Positions 27,276 to 31,193 of a stretch of 64,000 bases of DNA are shown here, piece by piece. The stretch is from Dehalococcoidia bacterium (GTDB lineage Bacteria > Chloroflexota > Dehalococcoidia > Tepidiformales > Tepidiformaceae), in assembly GCA_003104995.1 (NCBI GenBank), contig PQAO01000021.1:248001-312000 (forward strand), given 5' to 3'. Positions within the stretch are counted from its first letter, which is position 1; each line of letters begins with the position of its first letter. The translations under genes were made by a program, and so were the position numbers. The notes under the pieces are model-generated. The model ran no database searches. It was not told the DNA's origin and saw only the letters and a program-made list of their open reading frames with translations.

Positions 27276-30200
27276 ATGACTGCGACTGGAAGAATCACCG
27301 TCCCCCGCCTGCCGAGGCGCCTTGTGCCCCGCCCTCGCCTCCTCCAGCGCCTCCACGCCTCAATTGGTAACGGCCTTACCGTCCTCCAGGCCCCGGCCGG
27401 CTACGGCAAGACCACGCTCATCTCAAGCTTCGCGGCCGAGGTGGAATTCCGGCCTGCCTGGCTCACCCTCGATGCCTCCGCCGGCGCCCCCGAAGTCTTC
27501 GCACAGCAGTTGGCCGCGGCACTCGCCGGTGACCGCGAGATCGAGCCCCCCGCTGTCTCCACCAAGTTCACCGACCTCCAGGCCTACATTCACGCCGCCG
27601 CCCACCAGGCAGCCGATGCGTCCGGCCTTCCGCTCCTCGTTGTCATCGACAACGTCGAAGAGCTCTCCGACGGTCGCGAATCCAGTGCGCTCCTCGTCTG
27701 GCTCATGGAAGTCCTCCCCGAAGGAAGCGAAGTCATCCTCTCCGGGCGCGAGTTGCCGTTCATCCCCTCTATCAACGCCCTCATCGCCACCGGTGAAGTC
27801 ACCGTGCTTGATGGCGCCGACCTTGCCTTCGATGGAGATGAACTCGCTGCCGCCATCGGCCTTTCGGACGGGAAAGACAACCCTTCGGAGCTCGCCAGGC
27901 TCACCGGCGGGTGGCCCGTCGCCGTCATGGCGTCCCTTGCTGGCAGTGCCGGCAGCTGTGATCGGCTGAGCACTGCCGCCTTCGATCGCTACCTTCGTTC
28001 CGAGGTCTGGGAGCGTGTTCCGCTGGAGCTGCAGGAAGTCCTGCGCAGCGTAGCCCTCAGTCCCACCATCGAACGGGCTGCTGTCGAACTGGACTTTGGC
28101 CCTGCCGCCTGGCGGCAACTCACCGCCTGGGCCTCAACCCACGACTTCCTCTGCGAGCACCTCTCGCCGGCTGAATTCCGCCTCAGCCCCATGCTCCGCC
28201 AGTTCATCGTGGCCGACTTCCAGGGCTCGGACCCCGAGAGATACGACTCGGCGGTCGAACACGTGCTCGAGTCGATGATCGCGGCCGGCGACCTGACCGA
28301 GGCCGTCGAGTTCGCCCGGGCGGCTGCGAGCGAGCGGCACCTCGCCGAACTACTCGAATCCCACAGCGCCCAGCTGATCATCCAGGGCGCCTTCACGTTG
28401 CTCTGGCGTGCTTTTGAATCCATCAGTACCACGACGCTTGGCCGCAGGCCGCTCCTCCGCGCCTTGCTCGCCCGGCTCACCGCCCACCACGGCGACCCGG
28501 AGGATGCGCTCCGCCGGGCGGGACTCGTCCTCCGCGATCCATCGAACTCCGGGGCCGCTCGAATCCACGCCCTGCTGGCAAGCCTCCGCGCCCAGCGCCT
28601 GCTCGGGCGCCTCGAAGAGGCAACCACCACGGCCCACCGGCTTCGCGCCCTCGAGTGCTGCGACGATCCAGTTCTCCAAACTGAAGTCGCCTACCAGAGC
28701 GCCGAGTTCGAACTCTCCATCACCCGCAATTTCTCCCGCGCGGAGCAGCTGCTCAACGACGCCATCTGCATGAGCGAACGCGATCACGTAGAGCCGCTCG
28801 GTCTTCTCGCACGGTCCACGCTCGGCCAGGCCCTGGCGATGCACGGCAACGCGCCGGCAGCGGTCACGGTCCTCACTCGGGCAGCCCAGGGCTGGCGCAG
28901 CCTCGGCCGCTCTTCCAACCTCGGGTGGGTGCTCAACAACCTCGGCATGTCCCACCTCCAGGCCGGCGACTTCGCCAGCGCCGTGTCCGTCCTCATTGAA
29001 GCCGTCCAGGAAGGCCTCGATTGCGGAAACCAGCGCAACGTTGCCTATGCGACTGCCTCGCTCGGCGACGCCGAACTCGCCCTGGGCCATTTCCAGAACG
29101 CCCGCGAACACTACGAAGAGGCTATTCGCATCTGCGCGACCGACGCGCTGGACGAAACCCTGGCCGCCCTCTCGATCGCTGGACTTTCCTCCGCGTTCCT
29201 CGGCCTTGGCGACCTCCAGCAGGCCGACTTCTTCTCCCGCCGGGCATTGCTCGTCGCACTCGCTTCGGCGAACGACTACGAAGTCGCCCACTGCAAGTTG
29301 CAGCAGGCGGCCTGCGAGTTCGCCGCAGGCAACTACGTGTCGGCCGTCTCCGAGGCTGCACAGGCCGCCGAGCGTTTCGAGGCGATGGATGTCCCGACCT
29401 CACTCGCGATCGCCCATTACCGCATGGCGATGGCCTACTTCCGGACCAGCCGCCGCCCCGAAGCGCAGGAAGAGATCGGAAAGAGCGCCGCCGTCCTGAA
29501 GGAACCCTGGATGGCCAGCGCGCTCGTCCCGCTGATGCGCGAGAACCCGATGTTCGCACAATGGGCGGCCTCCCGTGCCGGCGTTGGCCGTGTCTTCCGC
29601 GACCTCCTCGAGCGCCAATCGATTGGAGTCCTCGCCCCTGCCGAGGAGCAGCCCGCGGCCGAATCCCGGGGGCGCTTGCCCCGCGTGGTTGCGCGCAGCC
29701 TCGGGGCCCTTTCCGTGTCCGTCGGCGGGCGTGACGTCTCCGATGAGCAGTGGGCCAGCGCCCGGGCGAAAGAGATGTTCTTCCTCTTGCTCTCGCATCG
29801 CGGCGGCCTTCGCAAAGAGGAGGCTGTTGAACACCTCTACCCGGATCTGCCGCGTGAAAAGTGCAACAGCGCATTCCATTCCAATCTCTATCGCATCCGC
29901 AAAGCACTCTACCAGGATAGTGTCGTTAAGCGTGATGGCGCGTACATCCTGAACCCCGAGGGCCACTTCGACTGGGACGTCGAGGAGTTCGAAGCCGCCA
30001 TCGAGCGTGGCCGTCAGGCCCCTCCTGGGTCGAAGGAGCGCGCCGTCGCCTTCCAGGAAGCTGTCGAGAAATACGGTGGCCCCTTCGCCGAGGTGTTCCA
30101 GTCCGAATGGGCGGCGGCCACCCGCGCGCGGCTCGATGGCGAGGCATACGAGTCGCTGGCGACGCTCGCGGCCTACTTCGCCAGCCGCGACGATTACGAG

Positions 30201-30419
30201 TCGGCTGCGATGTGCATGGAACGTGTCCTTCGTGCCAACCAGTACAACGAAGAAGCTGCCTACCAGTTGGCCCGCTACCGCGGAAAGGCCGGGCAGACCG
30301 TCCAGGCGCTCAGCTTCATCGATGACTACGGGTCAACCTACGCCTCGGAGTTCGGCGAAGACCTCCCCTCCCGGTTCTGGCAGTTGCGGGCCGATATCGC
30401 CGCCGGCGTTGCGGTCTAG
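27276..30419 (+). CDS. STAND-type transcriptional regulator: MalT-like ATPase, TPR array, C-terminal SARP/BTAD domain
   Basis: About 1047 residues. Residues ~10-340 form a MalT-like NTPase (LQAPAGYGKTTLISSFA Walker A; LPLLVVIDNVEEL Walker B). Residues ~345-790 are helical TPR repeats (YATASLGDAELALGHFQNAREHYEEAIRI). Residues ~810-1045 hold an OmpR-like winged helix (AKEMFFLLLSHRGGLRKEEAVEHLYPDL, FHSNLYRIRKAL) and a bacterial transcriptional activation (BTAD) repeat domain. Such STAND regulators oligomerise on ligand binding and activate transcription. Start 27276 is chosen to begin just before the conserved VPRLPRRLVPRPRLLQRL. A 28-codon peptide gene follows. Confidence 0.85.
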   Translation: MTATGRITVPRLPRRLVPRPRLLQRLHASIGNGLTVLQAPAGYGKTTLISSFAAEVEFRPAWLTLDASAGAPEVFAQQLAAALAGDREIEPPAVSTKFTDLQAYIHAAAHQAADASGLPLLVVIDNVEELSDGRESSALLVWLMEVLPEGSEVILSGRELPFIPSINALIATGEVTVLDGADLAFDGDELAAAIGLSDGKDNPSELARLTGGWPVAVMASLAGSAGSCDRLSTAAFDRYLRSEVWERVPLELQEVLRSVALSPTIERAAVELDFGPAAWRQLTAWASTHDFLCEHLSPAEFRLSPMLRQFIVADFQGSDPERYDSAVEHVLESMIAAGDLTEAVEFARAAASERHLAELLESHSAQLIIQGAFTLLWRAFESISTTTLGRRPLLRALLARLTAHHGDPEDALRRAGLVLRDPSNSGAARIHALLASLRAQRLLGRLEEATTTAHRLRALECCDDPVLQTEVAYQSAEFELSITRNFSRAEQLLNDAICMSERDHVEPLGLLARSTLGQALAMHGNAPAAVTVLTRAAQGWRSLGRSSNLGWVLNNLGMSHLQAGDFASAVSVLIEAVQEGLDCGNQRNVAYATASLGDAELALGHFQNAREHYEEAIRICATDALDETLAALSIAGLSSAFLGLGDLQQADFFSRRALLVALASANDYEVAHCKLQQAACEFAAGNYVSAVSEAAQAAERFEAMDVPTSLAIAHYRMAMAYFRTSRRPEAQEEIGKSAAVLKEPWMASALVPLMRENPMFAQWAASRAGVGRVFRDLLERQSIGVLAPAEEQPAAESRGRLPRVVARSLGALSVSVGGRDVSDEQWASARAKEMFFLLLSHRGGLRKEEAVEHLYPDLPREKCNSAFHSNLYRIRKALYQDSVVKRDGAYILNPEGHFDWDVEEFEAAIERGRQAPPGSKERAVAFQEAVEKYGGPFAEVFQSEWAAATRARLDGEAYESLATLAAYFASRDDYESAAMCMERVLRANQYNEEAAYQLARYRGKAGQTVQALSFIDDYGSTYASEFGEDLPSRFWQLRADIAAGVAV

Positions 30420-30444
30420 GGCTCACCCCGGTGCTCATGCCACG

Positions 30445-30473
30445 GTGTTCTCGCGAGAACTTCGCGAGAACAC
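30445..30473 (+). terminator. Hairpin between the regulator and the peptide gene
   Basis: GTGTTCTCGCGA / TCGCGAGAACAC, a 12-bp perfect stem with loop GAACT, starting 25 bases after the stop. No T run follows (CCGGCTT), so it may be a terminator, an attenuator or an operator (it contains the palindrome TCTCGCGAGA). Confidence 0.5.
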
Positions 30474-30520
30474 CCGGCTTAACCTCCACAGGACATCAAA
30501 ACGTCCTGGAGGGACACGGA

Positions 30521-30607
30521 ATGACTCGGCTTATCTCGACTCTGGTTGCTGTTTCGTCGCTGGCCATCATCGCGCTCGCCGGCGCTGCGCCCTTCCAGTC
30601 CTGGTAG
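30521..30607 (+). CDS. 28-residue secreted-peptide precursor candidate
   Basis: ATG at 30521 with GGAGGG eight bases upstream, stop at 30607. The product is a near-perfect miniature signal peptide: MTRL, a hydrophobic core (ISTLVAVSSLAIIALAG), then an AGA-A cleavage-like site and a short tail APFQSW. A short hairpin (AGGAC...GTCCT) sits just before the ribosome-binding site. The layout resembles exported peptide pheromone precursors beside TPR regulators; signalling function is inference. It could also be a small membrane protein or a leader of the next gene. Confidence 0.55.
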   Translation: MTRLISTLVAVSSLAIIALAGAAPFQSW

Positions 30608-30650: not shown

Positions 30651-31193
30651 ATGATCGCCCGTACGGTTCGCCGAGCGGGCGATTTGTGGTTTCTGGCGGC
30701 GGCTGCCGGCATCTTCCTCGCCCAGCAACTCGCTATCTCCTTCATGTCGACAGAAGGCGCGGAAGGCGCACTGCGCCGCACCCTCTTCTTCGTCACCACG
30801 GTTGCACTGGTGTTGCTCGCGCTGCGTTTCCGCAGGTACTGGGGCGCCTGGCTCGTCGCCGCCGGCATTGTCCTCAACCTCATCCCCATGGCCGCCCACT
30901 CCGGCGCCATGCCCATCGACTACGACATCCTCGAGTCCTCAGGCGCTTTCCCCGAAGTGACCAGGGACGACATCGGTAAGCAGACCAACCACGGCAAGGA
31001 TGTCGTACTCGAACGCGAGGACATTCACTTCTTCGTGCTCTCCGACCGCTACGTCGTTGACCTGCCCGGCTATGGCACCAACGTCTATTCGCTCGGGGAT
31101 TTCGTACTGTTTGCTGGTGTCGCCCTTCTCCTCATACAGGCCCCTCTCGTTCTCCTCCGCAGTCCCCGGCACGAATCTCCCCAGGCTGCCTGA
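30651..31193 (+). CDS. DUF5317-family membrane protein
   Basis: 180 residues with about four membrane helices (LWFLAAAAGIFLAQQLAISF, RRTLFFVTTVALVLLAL, WGAWLVAAGIVLNLIPM, LGDFVLFAGVALLLIQAPLVLL). NLIPMAAHSGAMPIDYDIL and the extracellular loop ending LPGYGTNVYSLGDFVLF match the DUF5317 pattern. Function unknown. ATG at 30651 is used; GTG at 30627 is an in-frame alternative. Confidence 0.8.
   Translation: MIARTVRRAGDLWFLAAAAGIFLAQQLAISFMSTEGAEGALRRTLFFVTTVALVLLALRFRRYWGAWLVAAGIVLNLIPMAAHSGAMPIDYDILESSGAFPEVTRDDIGKQTNHGKDVVLEREDIHFFVLSDRYVVDLPGYGTNVYSLGDFVLFAGVALLLIQAPLVLLRSPRHESPQAA

Follow-up and report, generated by a model that had tools for sequence, protein, structure and literature searches.

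MalT, of enterobacteria, has an N-terminal STAND half and a helical-repeat sensor, then a C-terminal DNA-binding domain of the LuxR HTH type. In Firmicutes, quorum sensing by the RRNPPA systems (Rap-Phr, PlcR-PapR, NprR, Rgg/ComR and AimR-AimP) uses cytoplasmic TPR receptors. A tiny exported-type precursor is encoded by the receptor gene, the mature peptide is its C-terminus, and the receptor acts on transcription (PMC9765709). In Streptomyces, the SARP protein AfsR activates the small gene afsS via two 11-bp direct repeats, of which the 3′ repeat is 8 bp from the −10 element. The same rule is given for SARPs generally: the direct repeats have a spacing of 11 or 22 bp, and the distance from the 3′ repeat to the −10 element is 8 bp (PMC10936776).

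The locus described here is in a window of 64,000 nucleotides, the whole stretch of DNA analysed. Its named relatives include Tepidiforma flava and Tepidiforma sp., which places it in the Tepidiforma family (Dehalococcoidia, Chloroflexota). Positions 27276–30419 of the plus strand encode a 1047-residue regulator, the presumed activator and presumed peptide receptor. The initial annotation gave it ATPase, TPR and BTAD regions, and Pfam bears this out with AAA_22, TPR_12 and BTAD (PF03704, 1.4e-8). TPR_MalT also matches, under the Pfam curated cut-off. The protein has the OmpR-type DNA-binding domain and BTAD region that mark a SARP, the former being read from the structural model and the AfsR match and having no Pfam match. 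The AlphaFold model (mean pLDDT 88) matches the STAND-TPR structure 6mfv, MalT (8bob) and TPR superhelices that bind peptides, LGN among them. The TPR region covers about residues 390–790.

The regulator shares features with each described system. Its N-terminal half is MalT-like by sequence and fold, and, as in MalT, a helical-repeat array is followed by a C-terminal DNA-binding domain. Unlike MalT, it carries an output of the SARP/BTAD kind, and a peptide gene is linked to it. The MalT NCBIfam equivalog scores 115 bits against a cut-off of 537 and covers only residues 6–510, so full-length membership does not apply. SARP, NTPase and TPR parts are common to AfsR and the regulator, and residues 846–1040 resemble the AfsR SARP structure 8hvr in sequence. 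However, the domain order is reversed, with STAND first and SARP last, and the presumed target is a signal-peptide-like mini-peptide. The overall AfsR match is weak; the NCBIfam equivalog scores 34.3 bits (cut-off 1430), again short of full-length membership. RRNPPA receptors combine an HTH or Rap-type N-terminus with TPRs and contain no NTPase. The regulator is an AAA/STAND-TPR-BTAD protein and is therefore not an RRNPPA receptor. Compared with those receptors it is three times larger, joins a STAND ATPase to a SARP-type output at the C-terminus and occurs in Chloroflexota; the module also has a SARP direct-repeat operator and a DUF5317 gene. Any likeness to Phr is thus in manner of working only, the regulator itself being MalT/AfsR-like. 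The module would work like the RRNPPA pheromone systems without belonging to them.

The mini-peptide gene and its module

A 28-codon open reading frame (30521–30607, plus strand) begins 101 nt after the regulator gene, on the same strand. The sequence GGAGG is found 8 nt before its ATG, as expected from the strong ribosome-binding site annotated initially. The product, MTRLISTLVAVSSLAIIALAGAAPFQSW, has the layout of a signal peptide with an appendage: a positively charged start, 15–20 hydrophobic residues, small residues and a short tail that often starts with AP. The tail has 5–8 residues in many clades and more in some. In the family, the G, A and P residues that immediately precede the tail vary little or not at all. 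Export is likely, and cleavage is predicted before AP, between AGA and APFQSW in this genome. The gene therefore resembles that of an RRNPPA propeptide, being small, beside the presumed receptor, and specifying a secretion signal (recognised by composition) and a candidate C-terminal mature peptide.

With just 28 codons, the frame could be a chance occurrence or a non-functional leader. Codon-level change argues strongly against this. Between close pairs, synonymous change is 0.25–0.68 per site versus 0.00–0.05 for nonsynonymous change, the former typically ~10 times the latter. For a more divergent pair of the same genus (L002 and L010), the values are 0.61 and 0.13. This pattern marks the frame as a real gene under purifying selection. 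Furthermore, the frame co-occurs one-to-one with the regulator. A fixed small-ORF filter, applied to 400 nt 3′ of distant regulator homologues, found a match in 10 of 15 cases, compared with 4 of 224 control gene ends and 0–3 per 100 shuffles. A chance frame is extremely improbable and, in our view, already refuted by co-occurrence and purifying selection.

Full-length regulator orthologues were found in 23 genomes of the 38-genome family, the 38th genome (G061) lying outside that search. Each of these 23 genomes also has exactly one strong match (E<1e-9) to a profile of the peptide, and the remaining 15 family genomes have none. The DUF5317 gene is present in exactly these 23 of 38. Nine of the 15 genomes without the module are from one genus; hence, the 38 genomes are not 38 independent observations. 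The other six span five further genera and lack all three genes. The C-terminus of the peptide is constant within most genera and differs between them. The family tails are APFQSW, APYQSW (as in T. flava, locus L094), APIQSW, APVQWW, APVQPW, APFQNW, APFQHW, APFQSI, APFESW, APIAPW, APIMHY and APWMHY. The initial annotation had proposed looking for exactly such a small frame beside regulator orthologues, and its absence there would have counted as refutation. The frame proves to be conserved and its C-terminus differs by genus, which supports a dedicated pair of regulator and peptide of the pheromone type.

Beyond what was annotated initially, the locus has an operator, a separate promoter and a downstream gene for a 180-residue DUF5317 membrane protein (30651–31193, plus strand; PF17248, 3e-16), presumed to be co-transcribed with the peptide gene. 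Relative to the regulator, the peptide gene and the DUF5317 gene are jointly inverted in one genome (G020). In another (G006), the peptide gene is on a different contig from the regulator. From this pattern of occurrence, regulator, mini-peptide and membrane protein are a conserved gene module in Chloroflexota.

DUF5317 is named in none of the open papers searched. A weak Foldseek match (prob 0.33) to 6ryp, which we take to be LspA, and two invariant Asp residues 18 residues apart brought an LspA-like protease into consideration. Profile comparison by hhalign with Peptidase_A8/LspA gave a probability of 1.2% (P=0.042, C-terminal segment only) and did not support the assignment. In other Chloroflexota (L111, L115, L123 and L125), a DUF5317 gene directly follows an HD-GYP-like gene and no mini-peptide is present. 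Thus, DUF5317 serves more than one context.

Genes similar to oppD and oppF are ~3.8 kb upstream, close to the 4 kb noted initially. Close opp homologues accompany the module only in the nearer subclade (L092–L097 and L102); elsewhere they are absent or there are only low-identity ABC genes. Hence, opp was rejected as a part of the module. Of the quorum-sensing-like circuit proposed in the initial annotation, the dedicated pheromone-type pair stands, given the conserved frame, but the argument from Opp linkage falls, because many genera keep the module but not the opp synteny. In RRNPPA systems, Opp takes the mature peptide back up, and the peptide then binds the TPR domain. The nearby opp genes neither favour nor disfavour peptide import because Opp need not be linked. 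PADLOC gave no match, and a defence-system reading was dropped. A search for a plasmid-borne origin also gave no match.

Operator and promoter of the peptide unit

Upstream of the peptide gene are two direct repeats, TCGCGAGAA, with an 11-bp period (TCGCGAGAACTTCGCGAGAAC; 30451–30471, plus strand). No other perfect site occurs in the genome; allowing two mismatches adds few sites, at a frequency near that of the controls. In a shuffle test of the repeat, p<1/300. The peptide promoter has two 11-bp-spaced direct repeats (CGCGAGAAC) and then, 9 nt later, TANNNT. The TANNNT hexamer starts exactly 9 nt past the second CGCGAGAA in 16 of 16 distinct lineages of the family, the background being 0.0095 per position. 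Here, the hexamer is TAACCT (30480–30485, plus strand), the presumed −10 element of the peptide-DUF5317 transcription unit, identified by its fixed spacing to the repeat. Tepidiforma relatives thus have the repeat period (11 or 22 bp) and the distance to the −10 element (~8 bp) of a SARP promoter, at which binding is predicted. In its arrangement, this is the architecture of a SARP activator site. Given such conserved anatomy, the neighbouring SARP-type protein very likely activates the peptide-DUF5317 unit.

Across the family, the operator pattern matches about once per genome, upstream of the peptide gene. The exceptions are an extra site in G005 and a weak site in G008, a genome without the module. 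The pattern misses the more diverged repeat of G009, which is nonetheless visible by eye. When ten genomes were searched at two mismatches, two extra sites were found in all, and an additional regulon was rejected, such sites being few and near the control level. Since essentially only the peptide unit has the operator, no wider response is visible and the loop between regulator and peptide seems private. The operator stays with the peptide gene in both the inverted and the relocated arrangement (G020 and G006). Hence, the peptide-DUF5317 pair is a separate transcription unit. Read-through from the regulator gene, or a leader role for the small frame, was rejected because the pair retains its own promoter after inversion or movement.

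The extra site in G005 (CGCGAGAGTTTCGCGAGAGC, then TACCCT) is at ~1500–1525 of L059 (G005:C5:188648-188667, minus strand). It precedes an apparent response-regulator gene that adjoins a sensor-kinase-like gene, and may be a second target of the regulator in G005.

The operator additionally reads as a perfect palindrome in this genus (GTGTTCTCGCGA...TCGCGAGAACAC; 30446–30474 of the window), forming a strong hairpin right after the regulator gene. This hairpin may double as a terminator. Further downstream, a predicted leader stem-loop (30483–30512, plus strand) may pair with the ribosome-binding site (GGAGG, 30508–30512). Folding of 30420–30560 gave z=−3.98, a value partly driven by the operator palindrome. 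Pairing between leader and ribosome-binding site recurs in several genera with quite different sequences, with weak statistics. The hairpin was not retained as a regulatory RNA; the signal was weak in the family (Wilcoxon p=0.04) and absent outside it. Rfam found only tRNAs in the 64-kb window.

A proposed peptide circuit and its alternatives

We consider it moderately probable that the module is a self-contained, private autoinducing peptide circuit built on a STAND-TPR-SARP activator. The C-terminal SARP domain would bind both 11-bp direct repeats, close upstream of the −10 element, and switch on the peptide-DUF5317 unit. The 28-residue product would be exported via its signal-peptide-like body. 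Cleavage before the conserved AP would leave the short tail, APFQSW in this genome. The tail would re-enter the cytoplasm and bind the TPR array of the same regulator, shifting the STAND ATPase between a resting and an active state. Peptide synthesis would thereby be self-reinforcing and clade-specific. DUF5317 would be a co-induced membrane partner and is a candidate for processing, transport or output. Release of the tail and its sensing by the TPR array, with feedback, we hold to be moderately probable.

Covariation of the tail with the regulator bears on this proposal. Among 15 family lineages, a small sample in which ancestry is controlled only in part, distances between tails correlate with distances between TPR domains after the STAND and DNA-binding parts are removed (partial r=0.45, p=0.0025). 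With DUF5317 also removed, r=0.32 (p=0.026, 12 lineages). The 20-residue signal part has no such link to the TPR domain in the same family lineages. Such covariation is what recognition of the tail by the TPR domain predicts, and weakly supports it.

Distances between signal parts are instead linked to DUF5317 (partial r=0.32, p=0.007). This would suit a peptide that serves DUF5317 as an accessory or small subunit of one helix, as CydX serves cytochrome bd, with the regulator merely controlling a membrane complex. The peptide and DUF5317 genes also adjoin and move together, even away from the regulator. However, it is the TPR domain, not DUF5317, that the tail follows. Moreover, two genomes (G090 and G148) have regulator and peptide and no DUF5317 match, and many DUF5317 genes follow HD-GYP genes without such a peptide. 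We regard a subunit role as quite improbable.

The main rival to peptide sensing is that the peptide is an output. The regulator would sense another ligand, or stress, by its STAND and TPR parts and induce an exported or membrane-inserted effector peptide together with DUF5317. The MalT-like N-terminal half of the regulator fits this explanation; MalT senses a sugar, maltotriose. So do the restriction of the operator to the peptide unit and the precedent of AfsR, which acts on the afsS promoter and is the best studied of the large SARPs that contain NOD and TPR parts (PMC10936776). An output role would leave aside that the tail differs between clades and follows the TPR domain. In addition, a signal-peptide-like body with a variable end of 4–6 residues is little material for an effector. 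Hence, we judge an output role unlikely, and the circuit with peptide sensing is our preferred explanation.

Homologues elsewhere in Chloroflexota

The regulator profile was searched in 301 Chloroflexota genomes. Outside the family, 13 homologues had E<1e-100, and every genome concerned has a signal-like mini-peptide gene. The gene is 90–180 nt downstream of the regulator in 9 of the 13 cases and 505 nt downstream in L152. In G052 and G342 it is distant from the regulator and precedes a DUF5317 gene; no 11- or 12-bp repeat was found in front of these pairs. L026 and L027 provide two additional cases of regulator and mini-peptide. A search starting from DUF5317 likewise reached triads of regulator, peptide and DUF5317 (L112–L114, L116–L119, L121, L132 and L134). 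G090 and G148 belong to another family; since they have no DUF5317 match, the core of the module is the regulator-peptide pair.

Ends of the non-family peptides include VLASGAPGMWGD, AIASGAPVGGSGF, VPIAAWPVGTCP, SSGAAESYSP, AVAEYTSYP, ASGADAVWP, ASGAPNDWPGG/P and LVAAAPWYWG. Tails thus differ between clades, as with APFQSW, APIMHY, APNDWPGG and EYTSYP. Most of these peptide genes are preceded by a clade-specific direct repeat, for example TTTGGTAAG, TTGTAAGTG, GTTTGTTCA, TTCGTCACA or TTTTGAAGC. The period of these repeats is 11 bp, except in the f42/f71 group, where it is 12 bp. No direct repeat was found before the peptide gene in L140, L141 and L142, and the repeat is weak or doubtful in L152, L155, L161 and L172. 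G079, the remaining case of the 13, has two mini-peptide copies (L191, 7659–7763 and 11136–11240), of which one is divergent to the regulator and the other precedes DUF5317. The copies are near-identical, differing only in the last residue (NDWPGG and NDWPGP), and both are behind GTTTGTTCAGA repeats.

These homologues raise the prospect of phylum-wide cell-cell communication by peptides, outside the RRNPPA systems of Firmicutes. STAND ATPases with SARP output would be short-pheromone receptors, each matched to a tail and a direct-repeat promoter of its own, and in many clades DUF5317 would serve them as a dedicated partner for processing or transport. We advance this tentatively, our doubts slightly outweighing our confidence. 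Among the open papers searched, a set without preprints and largely without subscription journals, none describes such a system for Chloroflexota. If correct, the widespread STAND-TPR-SARP architecture would gain a class of ligand, and the uncharacterised DUF5317 membrane family a context. Since the sequences of the candidate ligand, the operator and the receptor are known, what such STAND regulators sense becomes testable.

Weaker regulator matches (E ~1e-40 to 1e-58) are mostly confined to the N-terminal part. A mini-peptide was found in 2 of the 10 re-examined (G177 and G278); most of these matches were rejected as module regulators and look like other SARP paralogues. In G206, a 60-codon lipoprotein-like open reading frame with near-repeats (SPGDMLESPEASPGDMLASPEASPSP) is found near another SARP-type regulator (L187 1078–1260, minus strand).
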